Below, piece after piece: positions 25,262 to 53,248 of a stretch of 64,000 bases of DNA. The position numbers and the translations under genes are program-made. The stretch lies in NCBI RefSeq assembly GCF_021631985.1, contig NZ_CP070225.1:2914001-2978000 (forward strand). The letters run 5' to 3'. This stretch comes from Sandaracinus amylolyticus. Its GTDB lineage: Bacteria; Myxococcota_A; Polyangia; Polyangiales; Sandaracinaceae. The notes under the pieces were generated by a model. The model was not told the DNA's origin. It did no database searches and saw nothing but the letters and a program-made list of their open reading frames with translations. Within the stretch, counting starts at the first letter, position 1. Every line of letters begins with the position of its first letter.

Positions 25262-25275
25262 ATTCCGCGCCGACG

Positions 25276-25305
25276 AATCGCCTCCAGCGCCCGCTGGAGG
25301 CGATC
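25276..25305. repeat. Palindromic repeat copy 1
   Basis: ATCGCCTCCAGCG (25277-25289) and CGCTGGAGGCGAT (25292-25304) are perfect inverted arms of 13 bases with two bases between. It lies directly after the stop of the preceding gene. Confidence 0.75.
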
Positions 25306-25357
25306 CGCGAATCCCAACACGCAGTCAGACGGGAATTTTCGCGATCCTCGCGCCCCG

Positions 25358-25387
25358 AATCGCCTCCAGCGACCGCTGGAGGCGATT
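25358..25387. repeat. Palindromic repeat copy 2
   Basis: AATCGCCTCCAGCG (25358-25371) and CGCTGGAGGCGATT (25374-25387) are perfect arms of 14 bases with AC between. The left arm is identical to that of copy 1, 82 bases away. Confidence 0.75.
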
Positions 25388-25397
25388 TCGCGCCGCA

Positions 25398-25429
25398 GAA
25401 TCGTCCCCAGCGCGCGCTGGACGCGATTC
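25398..25429. repeat. Palindromic repeat copy 3, diverged
   Basis: GAATCGTCCCCAGCG (25398-25412) and CGCTGGACGCGATTC (25415-25429) keep the same core with three mismatched positions in the stem. The flank CGCCGCAGAATCG before it recurs at about 25432, where a further partial copy starts (ATCGCGATCC). Confidence 0.65.
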
Positions 25430-25474
25430 GTCGCCGCAGAATCGCGATCCGCGGCCGAAAACGGGGGGTTCGCG

Positions 25475-27560: not shown

Positions 27561-30500
27561 GTGAACCGTCGTGCCTTGATCGATCAGAAGCGCATCGCGC
27601 CCTACGTGGCGTTCGTCCTGTCGGGCGCGTCGAGCCTGATCTTCCAGACGATCTGGACCCGCATGCTGCACCACGTGTTCGGCGCGACCTCGGTCGCGAT
27701 CAGCACGGTGCTCACGGTGTTCATGGCGGGCCTCGGCCTGGGCACGTGGATCGCGGGGCGCTTCGCGCATCGCATCAAGCACCCGATCTACGCCTATGCG
27801 ATCGCCGAGATCGGCGTGGCGATCTGGGGCCTGCTGATCCCGTTCATGGTCGCGTCGGACGGTTGGCTCGCCGACGTGAACGCGTTCCTCCGGCAGTCGC
27901 TGGGCGCCGAGAGCACGACGTTCATGATCGCGCGCTTCCTCTGCGTCGTGCCGATCCTGCTGGTGCCCACGACGCTGATGGGCACCTCGCTGCCGCTGCT
28001 CTCGCAGCACTTCGCGCGCACCGAGAAGGACCCCGAGGTCGTCAGCTCGTACGTCGGCACGCTCTACTCGGTGAACACGTTCGGCGCGGCGTGCGGCCCG
28101 CTGCTCTCGGCGTTCGTGCTGATGCCGAGCGTCGGCCTGGCGATCACGAACGTGGTCGCGTGCTCGCTGAACCTGACGCTCGCCGCGCTGATCTTCGCGT
28201 TCCGCGAGCCGCTGATCGGCAGCAAGTGGGGCAGCGGCGAGAAGATCGAGTTCCTGCCCGGCAAGGAGCCGGTGGCCGACGATCCGGTGCCGGCCCCGGT
28301 CGTGGTGAGCGAGCCCGAGCCGGAGACCGCGGCGAAGAAGAAAAAGAAGAAGACCTCCGAGGCCGCGGCGAAGGTCGACGCGCCGGTGACGAGCGCGGAG
28401 CGCGAGGTCTGGATCCCGCCGATCGCGCGCAAGATGGCGTTCCTCGCGTTCGCGCTGAGCGGCGCGGCGGCGCTCTGTTACGAGGTCGTGTGGTCGCGCG
28501 CGCTCGCGATGACGATCGGCTCGTCGATCTACTCGTTCGCGCTGATCCTCGAGACGTTCCTCATCGGCATCGCGAGCGGATCGGCGGCGATGAGCGCGCT
28601 GATGTCGCGCGGTCGCGGACCGCTCGGCGGCATCGGCGTCGCGGCGTCGATCCTGACGCTGATCGCGATGGCGCCCTGGGCGATCGACATCCAGCTCGGC
28701 GAGGGCCACATGCACGGGGGCGACGTCAGCACGTGGCTGATCGTCTCCGCGTTCCCCCTCGCGCTGATCGTGCTCGTCGCGGTCTACGGGATCCGCAAGG
28801 CGCAGCAGGAGCAGACGCTGGTCGAGATGGCGGAGGTGCGCACGAAGCGTCCCGACGCGTTCGCCGCGCCCGGCGTGATCATGCTGCTGGTCCCGCTGAC
28901 CTGCGCGATCCTCAACGCGGCGTACTTCTCGTACGGCTACCTGCCGAAGATCCTCGCGTCGGTCGTCGCGGCGCTCTGCATCATGCTCGGCTGCGCGATC
29001 ACGCTGCGCCGTCATCCGGTGCTGCTGCTCGCGATCATCCAGCTGCTGATCGCGGGCGCGACGACGGTCTCGTACGTGTGGCAGGACGAGATCCCGTACG
29101 CGTTCGCGCAGCTCGTCGTGTCGATCGGCGAGCTGCCCGATCACGTCGGCACGGTGCAGTTCTTCATGTTCTTCACGGCGGCGCTCTGCACGCTGCCGGC
29201 GACGCTGGGCATGGGCGCGATGTTCCCGCTCACGCTGCGCGTGTGGACCGCAGGCGGCAGCGGCGTCGCGCGCGACGTCGCGACCGTCTACACCGGCAAC
29301 ACGCTGGGCTCGATCGTGGGCTCGTGGCTGCCCGGCTTCGTGCTGCTGCCGCTCGTCGGCATGGAGCGCACGCTGCACATCGGCATCGCGCTCAACATGC
29401 TGCTCGCGCTCGGCATGCTGATCGCGGGCGCGGCGGAGCCCGACGTCGAGACCGAGGCGGACAAGGCGAAGCCGCGCACGAAGATCTCGCCGATCGTGTC
29501 GCTGATCGTGCCGCTCGTGATCCTCGGGGCCGCGACCGGTGTGGGCCTCTGGCTGGTCGGTGACGACGCGGCGATCCGCACCGCGATCGGCCTGGGCGCG
29601 GGCGCGACGGCGCTCTTGATCGTCGGTCTCTGGGGCCTGCTGCGCGTCTCCGAGCGCGATCGCAGCGATCGCGACGCGAAGCCGCCGACGTCGGCCGAGC
29701 TGCCCACGTGGCACGCGGTGACGGTCTACGTGCTCTCGCCCGCGATCCCGGCGCTGCTCGCGCTGCTCTACGTGGGCACCCACCGCCCCGACTCGATCAT
29801 GCGGTGGAACCTCACCCAGATGACGCTCGGCGTGTTCCGCGTGTCGCTCGCCGAAGGGATGCTCGATCCCGAGTCGTGGGGTCAGCCCGACCTCGTCTAC
29901 TACCACGACGGTCTGAGCACCACGGTCTCGGTCGAGCGCTGGGGACGGCACTACGCGCTGAAGAACAACGGCAAGGTCGACGCCTCGAACGGCGACGACA
30001 TGCCGACGCAGATCACGGTCGCGGCCTACCCGCTGCTGATGCACCAGAACGGCCCGCAGGATCTCGACGTCGCGGTCGTCGGCTTCGGCTCGGGCGTCAG
30101 CGTCGGCACCGCGCTCTCGTTCCCGGTGCGCACCGTCGACGTGATCGAGCTCGAGCGCGCGATCCCCGAGGCCGCGCGCTTCTTCCAGGACGTGAACTTC
30201 CTCGAGTACACGCGCGAGACGTTCCCCTACGTCGAGATGGATCGCCTCGAGATCATCAACGACGACGGGCGCAACTACCTCGCGTCGACCGATCGCCAGT
30301 ACGACGTGATCATCAGCGAGCCGTCGAACCCCTGGATCACCGGCGTCAGCGATCTCTTCACGGTCGATCACTTCCGCATCACGAAGCGCCGGCTCCGTCC
30401 GGGCGGCATCTACTGCCAGTGGGTGCAGCTCTACGAGATGAGCCCGGAGAACATCAAGACGATCTACCGGACGTTCGCGTCGCAGTACCGCTACGTCGTG

Positions 30501-31649
30501 GTGCTCGCGGCGGACGATCGCTCGAGCGACACCGTGATGCTCGGATCGGACGCGCCGCTCACGTTCGATCTCGAGCGCATGCAGCGGGTGTGGGAGACGC
30601 CGCAGGTCGCGGACCGCATGACGGTGCACGACCAGCTCGAGCGCGCGTACCTGCACGCGCCCTTCGACATGCTCGCGCGCGTGCTGCTCTCGTCGAAGGA
30701 CGAGGTCGAGGTCTACACGCAGCTCGAGCGTCGCCAGCGCGGCGGCGCGTGGCACGTCGACTACGCGTCGACGAACACCGGCACCTGCGAGGCCCCGGGC
30801 TGCGTGCGCGAGCCGGTGGTGCTCAACACCGACGACAACGCGCGCATCGAGTTCGCGGCGCCGCGCGACCTGATCGGCTTCGAGCGCTTCGAGGGCTACC
30901 TCGCGACGATCTACTCGCCCGAGTGGCCGTTCGGTCGGCTCGAGGATCACGTGCGCGGCTTCGGCGAAGGCGACGAGCGCGCGCGCAACCTCGCGGAGCT
31001 CGCGATGTCGCTCATCGGCCACGGGCGCTACGAGGTCGCGGCGCACTTCATCGAGCTCTCGCAGCAGGCGGGGCGCGCACGCGAGACCGCGGTGGCGCTC
31101 GAGGTGCTGACGTATTTGCTCTCGAGCGAGCACGAGCCGCGGGTGCGCATCGAGGAGCCGATGCCGGGCCCCGAGATGGATCGCGCGAGCGCCGAGCAGC
31201 TGGTGCGCGGCTTCGAGCGCGTGCGATCGGCGATCGATCGCGCGCAGTGGGGCGCGGCGCTGAGCGCGATGGAGGACATCCCGGCGCCGCTCCGCATGCA
31301 CAGCGGGCCGGCGATGCGCTTCCTCTACGGCTACCTGCTCTACAAGGCGGCCGAGGGATCGTTCGCGCAGTACCGCGCGGCCGCGGAGCAGTTCGACGAT
31401 CTGATCCGCACCGACGAGGACTACGTCACCTCGCACCCCGAGGTGTTCTACTTCCTCGCGCGCTCGCGCGACTCGCAGGGCGAGTACAGCGAGGCGCTCG
31501 ACAACATGCGGCTCTACGTCGAAGCGCGGCTCACGTCGTCGCACGCCGATGCGCTCGAGGCCCCGGAGCCGCCCGAGGGCGAGGCCCCGGCGAGCGACGC
31601 GGCGGGCGAGTCCGACAAGACCGAGCACGACGAAGCGACGCGCGGGTGA
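27561..31649 (+). CDS. Giant fusion: multi-pass membrane part, spermidine-synthase-like domain, TPR tail
   Basis: 1362 residues from GTG 27561. Residues about 10-225 and 285-720 are two blocks of hydrophobic helices, joined by a Lys-rich linker near residue 258 (AAKKKKKKTSEAAAK). From about 770 to 1060 comes a spermidine/spermine-synthase-like fold with DVAVVGFGSGVSVGTAL and DVIELERAI for nucleotide binding, then NDDGRNYLAS and YDVIISEPSNPWITG. This combination is the known 'fused MFS/spermidine synthase' type, in which polyamine synthesis is not proven. Residues about 1120-1330 are helical, TPR-like. It is probably an inner-membrane protein with a cytoplasmic catalytic or regulatory part. 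Confidence 0.85.
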   Translation: MNRRALIDQKRIAPYVAFVLSGASSLIFQTIWTRMLHHVFGATSVAISTVLTVFMAGLGLGTWIAGRFAHRIKHPIYAYAIAEIGVAIWGLLIPFMVASDGWLADVNAFLRQSLGAESTTFMIARFLCVVPILLVPTTLMGTSLPLLSQHFARTEKDPEVVSSYVGTLYSVNTFGAACGPLLSAFVLMPSVGLAITNVVACSLNLTLAALIFAFREPLIGSKWGSGEKIEFLPGKEPVADDPVPAPVVVSEPEPETAAKKKKKKTSEAAAKVDAPVTSAEREVWIPPIARKMAFLAFALSGAAALCYEVVWSRALAMTIGSSIYSFALILETFLIGIASGSAAMSALMSRGRGPLGGIGVAASILTLIAMAPWAIDIQLGEGHMHGGDVSTWLIVSAFPLALIVLVAVYGIRKAQQEQTLVEMAEVRTKRPDAFAAPGVIMLLVPLTCAILNAAYFSYGYLPKILASVVAALCIMLGCAITLRRHPVLLLAIIQLLIAGATTVSYVWQDEIPYAFAQLVVSIGELPDHVGTVQFFMFFTAALCTLPATLGMGAMFPLTLRVWTAGGSGVARDVATVYTGNTLGSIVGSWLPGFVLLPLVGMERTLHIGIALNMLLALGMLIAGAAEPDVETEADKAKPRTKISPIVSLIVPLVILGAATGVGLWLVGDDAAIRTAIGLGAGATALLIVGLWGLLRVSERDRSDRDAKPPTSAELPTWHAVTVYVLSPAIPALLALLYVGTHRPDSIMRWNLTQMTLGVFRVSLAEGMLDPESWGQPDLVYYHDGLSTTVSVERWGRHYALKNNGKVDASNGDDMPTQITVAAYPLLMHQNGPQDLDVAVVGFGSGVSVGTALSFPVRTVDVIELERAIPEAARFFQDVNFLEYTRETFPYVEMDRLEIINDDGRNYLASTDRQYDVIISEPSNPWITGVSDLFTVDHFRITKRRLRPGGIYCQWVQLYEMSPENIKTIYRTFASQYRYVVVLAADDRSSDTVMLGSDAPLTFDLERMQRVWETPQVADRMTVHDQLERAYLHAPFDMLARVLLSSKDEVEVYTQLERRQRGGAWHVDYASTNTGTCEAPGCVREPVVLNTDDNARIEFAAPRDLIGFERFEGYLATIYSPEWPFGRLEDHVRGFGEGDERARNLAELAMSLIGHGRYEVAAHFIELSQQAGRARETAVALEVLTYLLSSEHEPRVRIEEPMPGPEMDRASAEQLVRGFERVRSAIDRAQWGAALSAMEDIPAPLRMHSGPAMRFLYGYLLYKAAEGSFAQYRAAAEQFDDLIRTDEDYVTSHPEVFYFLARSRDSQGEYSEALDNMRLYVEARLTSSHADALEAPEPPEGEAPASDAAGESDKTEHDEATRG

Positions 31650-31654
31650 GCCCT

Positions 31655-31679
31655 GCCGGAGTGCTCGTTCCGCAGGTCC
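31655..31679 (+). repeat. Post-stop element, copy A
   Basis: GCCGGAGTGCTCG, two variable bases, then CCGCAGGTCC starts six bases after the fusion gene's stop. The same element recurs at 52230-52254 behind another gene. CCTGC[C]GG and CCGCAGG can pair around the middle, giving a stem. Confidence 0.6.
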
Positions 31680-31923
31680 CGGACGGGAGCGCGCGGATCA
31701 CCCGAGAGTCTGCACAGGCCGCTGCGCACTCGGTCCGGGTGCGTAGCTCGCTGCGCAGCGATCTCGCCGCCGGATGCGAAGCCTGGTACGCAGCCGCACT
31801 GAAACCGGCCGGTCGGCCGGATGAATACTGACTCTAAGTAGCTGAAAACACACGCGCATCGCGTTTCCAACCCCCGTGGCACGTACGGTGCTGAAGGGGG
31901 CCGCCGAGGAGGACGAAGACTTC

Positions 31924-50714: not shown

Positions 50715-52223
50715 ATGGCGGACGATCTCGGCGCGCGACTGCTCCGCGCGGGGTTGGTCACCCGGGATCAGCTCGCCGAGACGTTGGCCACCGCGCCGGC
50801 GCACGGAGGCGCGCTCGTCGCGGCGCTGGTCTCGCGTGGGGTCCCGGAGGACGCCATCGCCGGGTTTTTCCTGGCCGACGGATTCGGGCCGCTGATGGAG
50901 GCGGACGACCTCGCCAAGGCCGATCCCGGCGCGCGGCGACGGCTCTCGGGCGCGATGGCGGCGGACCTCCTGGCGATGCCGGTGCGCTCCAGCCCGGCGG
51001 GGCTCGTGGTCGCGATGGCCGCACCCTCGGATCGTCACGCGGTGCGCGAGATCGCGCGGGTCGTCGGCGGCGACGTCCTGCCGACCGTCGCGTGTGTGCG
51101 CGCGCTGCGTGCGGCGATCGGAGACGCGTACCCCGATCAGGCGAAGCAGGATGCCGCGGCCTCGGAGCCCTCGTTCGACGACCGCCCGACGATCATCGAG
51201 TCCGAGCCGCCGGTGCTGGAGCTGGTGCGGCGCCGGACGTCGGCCGAGACCCCGGCCGCCGGCAGCGCGCCGCTCGGCCCGCGGCTGATCGTAGACGACG
51301 ACGAGCTGGCAGTGCCGCTGGTGCGCACCAAGCCGCAGCACACGCCGCCGCGCGGTGTGGACGCGGTGCCGGCCGCGACCGCGGCGAAGGTGGTGAGCAA
51401 GGCGTTCGGGCGCCCCGAGGGTGTGCGCCGGGTGCAGCTGCCTGCGGCGCCGGGGCGTCACGATCGTCGCGGGACCGCGGAGTATCCGGCGATCAAGGAC
51501 GATCCCGAGCCGACCTCGACGCCCGCCCCTCCCGCATCGTCCTCGATGCCCGCAGCGGCGCCCGCCTCCACGCCCGCGAGCGCTCCGCGCGCGCCCACGC
51601 CGCGCCCGACGAGCATCGTGCCGCCGGAGCACGAGCGCTGGGACTTCGGTGGGCCGTCGAGCTCGTCGGCGCCCGCGCCGCCGCCTCCCAGAGCAGCGCC
51701 CAAGGTCGGACCGCGCGCCCGCAGCGAGCTCCCGAACGCGCGCTCGACGCTCCCCGAGGTCGGCACCGTGCTCGCCGCGATCCGGGGCGCGCCCGATCGC
51801 GACTCGGTGGTGCGCCTCGCGTGCGAGGGCGCGATCACCGTGGCGCGCACCGCCATCTTCCTCGCGCTGCGCAAGGGCGTGCTGAAGGGCTGGGAGGGCG
51901 CGGGCGGAGGGCTCACCCACGACGCGGTGCGCAACCTCTGGATCCCGACCACGAGCGCTTCGATGCTCAAGGACGTCGTGGAGCATCGCGAGGCGTACGT
52001 CGGGCCCTACGGGACCGCGGTGGCCGACGGGCTCTTCCGCGCGGCGGTCGGGAGCCGGGGCGGCGACGTCGCGCTGCACCCGGTGGTGGTCAGCGATCAC
52101 GTCGTAGGCGTGCTCTGCGCGGACGACGTGCTCCCCGTGCCCATCGCGCGACAGCGCATCGAGCTCCTGGCGCACGCGGTGGGCGAGGCGTTCAAGCGGA
52201 TCATCGTCGAGCGGAAGGGCTGA
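50715..52223 (+). CDS. MshEN-like domain protein with C-terminal GAF-like domain, no ATPase
   Basis: 502 residues, ATG 50715. Residues about 1-140 resemble the MshEN/GspE N-terminal domain (LGARLLRAGLVTRDQLAETL, then VPEDAIAGFFLADGFGPLMEA), which binds c-di-GMP in some secretion ATPases; typical ligand arginines are not all evident. A long Pro/Ala/Ser linker (about 165-335) follows. Residues about 345-500 are GAF-like (LAAIRGAPDRDSVVRLACEG, VVVSDHVVGVLCADDVLPV). No Walker motifs. It may be a c-di-GMP or small-ligand sensor rather than a motor. Post-stop element B follows. Confidence 0.78.
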   Translation: MADDLGARLLRAGLVTRDQLAETLATAPAHGGALVAALVSRGVPEDAIAGFFLADGFGPLMEADDLAKADPGARRRLSGAMAADLLAMPVRSSPAGLVVAMAAPSDRHAVREIARVVGGDVLPTVACVRALRAAIGDAYPDQAKQDAAASEPSFDDRPTIIESEPPVLELVRRRTSAETPAAGSAPLGPRLIVDDDELAVPLVRTKPQHTPPRGVDAVPAATAAKVVSKAFGRPEGVRRVQLPAAPGRHDRRGTAEYPAIKDDPEPTSTPAPPASSSMPAAAPASTPASAPRAPTPRPTSIVPPEHERWDFGGPSSSSAPAPPPPRAAPKVGPRARSELPNARSTLPEVGTVLAAIRGAPDRDSVVRLACEGAITVARTAIFLALRKGVLKGWEGAGGGLTHDAVRNLWIPTTSASMLKDVVEHREAYVGPYGTAVADGLFRAAVGSRGGDVALHPVVVSDHVVGVLCADDVLPVPIARQRIELLAHAVGEAFKRIIVERKG

Positions 52224-52229
52224 CTGCGA

Positions 52230-52254
52230 GCCGGAGTGCTCGCCCCGCAGGTCC
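52230..52254 (+). repeat. Post-stop element, copy B
   Basis: GCCGGAGTGCTCG, CC, CCGCAGGTCC begins seven bases after the stop and differs from copy A (31655) at only two bases. Both continue with GATC, three variable bases, CGA and AGTCT, so the similarity extends past the core. Confidence 0.6.
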
Positions 52255-52288
52255 GAGCCGATCGTTCGACAGTCTCCGACCCCGGCGC

Positions 52289-53248
52289 TCACGCGAGCTG
52301 CGCGTCGTGGAGCGAGAGCGACGCGGCGTGCGAGCGCGCGCTCCGGAGCAGCGCGTCGAGCGCCTCGGTCGCGTCCGCGAATCGCGCGGCCGGGTCCCAG
52401 CGCAGACACCGAGCGATCACACGACCGAGCGCGCCGAGGGTCGAGCCCGCGAACGCTTGCTCGATCGCGGCATCGCCGAAGGAGACGATGTCGCGCGCGC
52501 GCTCCGAGACCGGATCGGGGCGCCTTCCGAGGAACATCTCGTGGAGGATCACGCCGAGCGAGAAGACGTCGGCCGGGGGCGTGTTGCCGCTCTCGTAGAG
52601 CGACTCCGGCGCCATGTAGCAGGGCGTTCCGATGATCACGCCCGACCGCGACGGATCGTTCGCGTCCGCGGCGCCGATGGGGCTCGCGAGACCGAAGTCG
52701 ACGAGGCGAACGCGCGGCGAGTCGGGCTCCTGCTCGATGAGCACGTTTCCGGGCTTCAGGTCGCCGTGCACGAACCCACAGCGATGCACCGCGCGAACGG
52801 CGCGCACGACCTGGATCGCGAGATCGAGCGTCCGCGTGCGGTCGAGCGACGGATCGCGCAGCTCCTCGTCGAGCGAGCTCCCGTCGACCCACTCGAGCAC
52901 GATCGCGGGCCCGGCCCTGCCCGTCTCGACCACGTCGAACACGCGCGGGACGCTCGGATCGTCGATCAGCGACATCGTCCTGGCCTCGGCGACCAGGCGC
53001 GCGACGAGGTCGTCCTGCGATCGGATGCGCTCGGACCGCGCGATCTTCAGGGCCACCTGGCGCTCGTGTCGCAGGTCTCGCGCGCGGAACACGACGCCCA
53101 TTCCGCCGCGCCCCGCGACCTCGGCGACGAGGTAGCGACCCGCGACGACCATGCCCGGCCGCACCGGATCGTCGGGCCGCTCCGAGCGCCGGCGACGGGG
53201 CGCGACGCCGACCTCACCTCGAGCGACACGGCGATCGCGACCCGGCAT
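52289..53248 (-). CDS. Ser/Thr protein kinase, short form
   Basis: 319 residues if started at ATG 53248; the frame is open to GTG 53440, but the added residues look non-coding. Kinase domain about 33-310: AGRGGMGVVFRARD loop, ALKIARS Lys, catalytic loop HGDLKPGN (Gly replaces Arg of HRD), DFG and a TPCYMAPES segment. It lacks sensor, membrane or PEGA parts. The Arg-to-Gly change is seen in non-RD kinases. Convergent with the MshEN-GAF gene. Confidence 0.88.
   Translation of the reverse strand: MPGRDRRVARGEVGVAPRRRRSERPDDPVRPGMVVAGRYLVAEVAGRGGMGVVFRARDLRHERQVALKIARSERIRSQDDLVARLVAEARTMSLIDDPSVPRVFDVVETGRAGPAIVLEWVDGSSLDEELRDPSLDRTRTLDLAIQVVRAVRAVHRCGFVHGDLKPGNVLIEQEPDSPRVRLVDFGLASPIGAADANDPSRSGVIIGTPCYMAPESLYESGNTPPADVFSLGVILHEMFLGRRPDPVSERARDIVSFGDAAIEQAFAGSTLGALGRVIARCLRWDPAARFADATEALDALLRSARSHAASLSLHDAQLA

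Follow-up and report, generated by a model that had tools for sequence, protein, structure and literature searches.

Why should two unrelated genes carry the same 25-base sequence directly after their stop codons? The window analyzed here is a stretch of 64,000 nucleotides of the Sandaracinus sp. MSr10575 genome, in which GCCGGAGTGCTCGNNCCGCAGGTCC occurs at 31655-31679 and again at 52230-52254. A sequence-only reading of the window had drawn attention to the pair and counted two differences in 25 bases. The element proved to be real: there are 0 mismatches outside the two free bases (NN), and 0 such pairs were expected by chance in 100 shuffles. Its placement just downstream of a stop codon also held, although the distances from the in-frame TGA are 5 nt for copy 1 and 6 nt for copy 2 rather than the 6 and 7 nt first given. 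The features at the two loci, including assignments to subfamily A (described below), are as follows.

31647..31649, forward strand: TGA stop codon adjoined by copy 1 (gene 27561-31649)
31650..31690, forward strand: copy 1, an A-type 5′ fragment (GCCCT-GCCGGAGTGCTCGTTCCGCAGGTCCCGGACGGGAGC) left by a deletion that removed the 3′ half and part of the flank (alignment to the orthologue in the sister-species genome G001; profile match)
31691..31715, forward strand: host flank, not element, holding GATC, CGA and AGTCT (same sequence beyond the full element in G001)
52221..52223, forward strand: TGA stop codon adjoined by copy 2 (gene 50715-52223)
52224..52276, forward strand: copy 2, an A-type element with an internal deletion (profile match; orthologous G001 site empty)
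52289..52291, reverse strand: stop codon of the convergent gene beyond copy 2 (gene 52289-53152, reverse strand)

Copy 1 gives a profile match at 31655-31702 (E=2.4e-10), and in copy 2 the 5′ part runs to GGTCC (52254) and is fused straight to the 3′ part GAGCCGATCGTTCGACAGTCT. The similarity had been described as continuing beyond the 25-mer through GATC, CGA and AGTCT. This continuation is coincidental, as the letters are genuine 3′ element sequence in copy 2 and host flank in copy 1. The latter assignment follows because the G001 orthologue, before it reaches the same GCGCGGATCACCxGAGAGTCT, carries a full-length element and extra sequence, ~100 nt more in total. An argument for a structured RNA had been drawn from the differing gap lengths, and it fails because the copy 1 letters are host flank. 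Folding of the window copies was no better than that of shuffles (z +0.90 and +0.16), unlike intact copies elsewhere, which form a strong hairpin. Both window copies are decayed A fragments, fossils of a hairpin repeat. An Rfam scan confined to the 64-kb window, which holds these decayed copies, returned 0 matches above the gathering score.

Across the 10.96-Mb genome, the 25-mer has 212 matches at ≤3 mismatches (116 forward and 96 reverse), versus 0 for the reversed pattern under the same threshold. Together with the shuffles, this control refutes chance similarity of two GC-rich stretches, an explanation for which base composition alone speaks and which is vanishingly improbable. A loose two-box regular expression returned hundreds of coding false positives and was replaced by profile searches. 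The full-length model matched at least 150 times in MSr10575, where our copy counts are lower bounds, and at least 78 times in G001. The intact unit of ~82-100 nt reads TGA-(GTCCTT)-GCCGGAGT-GCTCGTCCCGC..hairpin..GCGGGCGAGC-CGATTTTTCGACAGTCTTCGAG, and the aligned copies give a unit of ~82 nt plus flanks, TGA-GTCCTT-GCCGGAGTGCTCGTCCCGCAGGTCCCGGACGGGAGCGCGCGAAGCGCGCGGACGGTAGGGACCGGCGGGCGAGCCGATTTTTCGACAGTCTTCGAG. Folding of the consensus gives a single long hairpin that encloses an inner one (−53.8 kcal/mol, z −3.57) and covers ~66 nt of the unit, with the tag GGAG(T) at its foot. The feet are nearly invariant (GGAGT-GCTCG and CGAGC-CGAT); the foot sequence GGAGTGCTCG and its far counterpart CGAGCCGA hardly change across 231 full-length copies, whose mid-stems vary. 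Clear terminal inverted repeats were not found in the element. Single copies number 108, and the remaining arrays run head-to-tail with 2 to 5 units. In the B-type array at C1:10174900-10175197 of MSr10575, the spacers repeat CTCAGAGCAT from the 3′ flank, which suggests that arrays grow via duplication of the element along with ~10 nt of flank.

Two subfamilies were distinguished. Subfamily A lies in sense relative to its gene, whereas subfamily B is antisense, its 3′ end adjoining the complement of the TGA stop. The feet and inner boxes are common to both, and the stem sequences of B differ from those of A yet stay paired. In a mixed A/B alignment, 97.8% of the tested cells were paired, and in none of 500 shuffles did pairing or the covariation score come up to the observed value; along part of the stem the arms are offset by one column between A and B, and such columns were excluded from the test. 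On the sense strand, unique A sequences contain 63 G.U pairs versus 30 A.C mismatches, an excess that leans towards sense-strand pairing but is suggestive only, because the copies are related. In subfamily B, an opposite-strand TGA stop lies 8-16 nt past CCGA at 15 of the 24 array tails. In the RefSeq annotation, two convergent genes flank the plasmid B copy, each ending ~10 nt away from it; these annotations are independent of our own gene calls, and the agreement covers that one B copy.

A genome-wide search for further copies after stops had been proposed as a check on the element, and it found many. With genes taken from our own codon-usage predictions (the plasmid excepted), 100 of the 112 MSr10575 array heads lie in sense 2-8 nt past an in-frame TGA, and for 79 the distance is exactly 6 nt. 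None of these array heads follows TAG or TAA, though 12% of genes end in those codons; the probability of TGA alone, given 88% TGA usage, is ~3e-6. At G001, 33 of 46 array heads are located at stops (29 TGA, 2 TAG and 2 TAA). The R1 model was trained on copies mostly at stops, so the only unbiased figure comes from an 800-kb sample, where 12 of 13 A-type sites fall 5-6 nt past a TGA stop. Non-coding, non-stop TGAs outnumber stop TGAs twofold in 800 kb (1196 vs 571), which excludes random use of any non-coding TGA as the source of the 100/112 count (~4e-36). A search upstream of the TGA for a longer target motif yielded no more than a weak G at −2. Selection may account for some of the preference for stop codons; the near-exact precision of insertion at stop codons is unusual for such repeats.

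The sister-species genome G001 (10,327,335 bp; ~90% identity at compared loci) is collinear across the examined stretch and provides a view of the same loci lacking the element. The sites are cleanly empty in G001, and the gene stops at the same TGA, opposite MSr10575 positions 263606, 415051, 497789, 2472722, 4448248, 4460074, 4910276, 5068647, 9521126 and others. The element was therefore inserted beside a pre-existing stop. At 497789, MSr10575 reads GAGTGA[GCCCTC..CGACGA]TGACGG versus GAGTGACGCG in G001; at 415051, CTGA[GTCCTT..CAGTCTC]TGAGCGCTCG versus GTGAGCGCTCG; and at 4448248, GGGCTGA[GTCTTG..GAGAC]TCACGC versus GGGCTGATCACGC. A second TGA is present at the far end of the element at 415051, 497789, 4460074 and 263606, and is absent at the TGA|TCA convergent sites 4448248 and 9521126. 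Duplication of the three bases TGA thus appears likely at some sites and is probably not general, because it is missing where convergent stops abut (TGATCA). Some sites are occupied in both genomes. For 143 of 155 MSr10575 copies, the closest relative is another MSr10575 copy, with a median of 3 differences in 82 columns, which indicates that the family expanded recently in the MSr10575 lineage. As a separate observation, one full A-type copy (C1:5090122, reverse strand) breaks the last codons of a gene rather than lying past a stop; CGATGGG is repeated on both sides, and the orthologous G001 site is empty.

Three options had been offered for the 25-mer: a 3′UTR element, a terminator family or a small mobile element. 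In favor of the last are the hundreds of copies scattered through the genome, their tandem arrays, an occupancy that differs between the species and the clean empty sites in the sister species. On these sequence comparisons, the 25-mer probably represents the conserved foot at the 5′ side of a mobile hairpin that is non-autonomous, resembles REPs and MITEs, and inserts at TGA stops. The 3′UTR position stands as well, but termination does not hold up as the defining role. A terminator or 3′UTR RNA family, kept by selection at gene ends and copied via local recombination instead of transposition, draws on the sense orientation right past stops, the strong hairpin with a U-run in A, the G.U excess and the enrichment of A copies before convergent genes (54/100 vs 234/648). 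Yet the U-run is variable (second U 64%) and starts 3 nt past the stem, a consensus scan calls no terminator in an intact element, and subfamily B is antisense to its gene. Moreover, termination needs no exact 6-nt spacing, the arrays reach 5 units, and near-identical elements have been gained by unrelated genes whose sister-species orthologues are without them. We consider this explanation unlikely. Intact A copies may act as terminators, but such a role does not explain the spacing, the arrays, the empty sites or the antisense subfamily; any effect on host mRNA, whether 3′-end stabilization or termination, would be secondary.

A search for Y1/RAYT proteins (PF01797) at E≤0.001 found none in MSr10575; relaxing the threshold to E≤1 gave one sub-threshold match in MSr10575 (E 0.81) and none in the related genomes G001 or G002, and the same Y1_Tnp search was positive in relatives G005 and G007. 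TnpB-like genes had no match in the genus. Among the intervals examined between neighboring elements (coverage did not extend to three), only ordinary genes and no carrier gene were found, and searches for a transposase carrying the element or flanked by it likewise found none. Reverse transcriptase families are present in the genome and were rejected as the mobilizer, not being linked to the element. These results bear on whether the copies are classical REPs moved by a RAYT or an IS200/IS605 Y1 transposase, or a lost relative, cutting single-stranded DNA at TGA. The GGAG(T) left unpaired at the 5′ hairpin foot, the many copies at extragenic 3′ ends, the want of clear terminal inverted repeats and the fixed orientation to the target are all consistent with such an enzyme; the failure to find a convincing Y1_Tnp in three genomes where the search works in others, the missing TnpB, the length of the unit and arrays that are head-to-tail instead of inverted pairs are not, and we regard this explanation as possible but doubtful. 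Palindrome-associated elements derived from IS200/IS605 lack terminal inverted repeats and have a subterminal hairpin, a short fixed target and a fixed orientation. The Sandaracinus element has all four features in common with them, but differs in that neither a Y1 transposase nor TnpB was found in the genus.

A different enzyme of the same genome uses related sites. MSr10575 carries six copies of an IS110-family insertion sequence, with CTTGTATCTAGTGCAC at its left end and GGTATCTCAGT at its right, located on C1 near 2737515, 4917692, 8393966, 7081218 and 7192921 and on the plasmid at 22665-24114. The right end is followed by CTCAGT in 6/6 copies, the junction CT|CAGT being the complement of ACTGAG. 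In 4/6 copies, the TCA serves as the stop codon of a well-supported gene that closes with Asp-TGA, on the side and in the orientation seen in subfamily B, and 3/6 copies are situated at the 5′ (left) end of an A-type element. These observations favor a reading in which the bridge-RNA-guided IS110 recombinase moves the elements, which would then be miniature relatives of the insertion sequence. However, the element ends are unlike those of IS110, A sites show no preference for a GACTGA context, and G002, in which the search for elements was negative, has an IS110 match too. There is accordingly only a slim chance that IS110 is the mobilizer; more simply, it uses the same kind of target, the element end, which is not proof that it moves the elements.

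Returning to a mobile hairpin that inserts at TGA stops, we compared it with described repeat systems. GTAG and CGTC REPs are high-copy extragenic palindromes with an unpaired foot tag, found mostly downstream of coding regions at co-directional or convergent genes; CGTC REPs have no dedicated transposase, and GTAG termini often give flanking ORFs a TAG stop (Di Nocera et al. 2013, PMC3733652). The Sandaracinus element is likewise high-copy, extragenic and at gene 3′ ends, with its foot tag unpaired. It differs in the tag itself (GGAG(T), not GTAG/CGTC), in a unit of 80-100 nt with an inner hairpin versus 20-40 nt, in head-to-tail arrays whose junction is fixed at TGA stops, in two subfamilies of opposite orientation to the stop, in the lack of any RAYT found in the Sandaracinus genomes searched, and in its host, as Myxococcota are unmentioned in that paper. 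Set against bacterial MITEs and other small mobile sequences such as ERIC/RU-1 (review PMC2229807), the element is similarly short, non-autonomous and dispersed, with clean empty sites in relatives, but no autonomous parent was found, the terminal inverted repeats are not clear, and the duplication, if any, is TGA only, with position set by stops. We therefore file it as a new variant among dispersed mobile palindromes, a member of neither group: not a REP because no RAYT was found and its size and tag differ, and not a MITE because no parent was found and clear inverted repeats were not seen.

The family has a narrow distribution. The R1 model matched in MSr10575 and G001 only, with 0 of 54 other relatives positive, among them the 820-contig assembly that is the genus's third genome. 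The broader R2 model gave the same distribution plus one weak match in relative G030 (E 0.004), which was dismissed as chance since the surrounding sequence reads like coding DNA. An exact 22-base pattern was absent from the genome contig and viral contig collections, and no element was found in phages. Within a plasmid collection, the element occurs only on pSa001 (NZ_MW053453.1) of MSr10575; near records may be missing from these collections. Literature searches found no description of the family; in the S. amylolyticus genome paper (PMC5010890), the passages retrieved by term search cover CRISPR and insertion-element screening and hold no such repeat.

How might such an element find its site? 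In the most likely mechanism, transposition in trans, an enzyme would recognize the hairpin feet (GGAGTGCTCG / CGAGCCGAT) and join one fixed end of the element, with a polarity that we infer, to the TGA; at the far end a second TGA would often result. Harmful insertions elsewhere may be purged by selection, which would presumably share with targeting in producing the observed pattern. Because joining the TGA leaves the protein unchanged, the host would bear little cost, and the stop codon would offer a mobile repeat a cheap route of spread. A bolder and rather improbable proposal is that the elements sense stop codons as such, through a mobilizer coupled to the end-points of transcription or translation or through a TGA-reading guide. 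If true, insertion genome-wide at the first base after the coding sequence would make this a stop-codon-homing element, with two subfamilies that evolved opposite orientations. Gene-end targeting is directly testable with the hundreds of natural copies, the antisense subfamily and the empty sites of a collinear sister genome, and the mapped copies supply 3′-end hairpins for a natural-product genus.

Two further repeats were observed alongside the family. At about 4841300-4841400 on C1 of MSr10575, tandem ~45-nt repeats GGATGACTCGGAGTGCTCGCGAGGACC carry the GGAGTGCTCG box without the rest of the element. Within the window, a palindromic hairpin of ~31 nt (GAATCGCCTCCAGCG.CCGCTGGAGGCGAT) occurs three times at positions 25275-25438, and a genome-wide pattern search returned only this locus.
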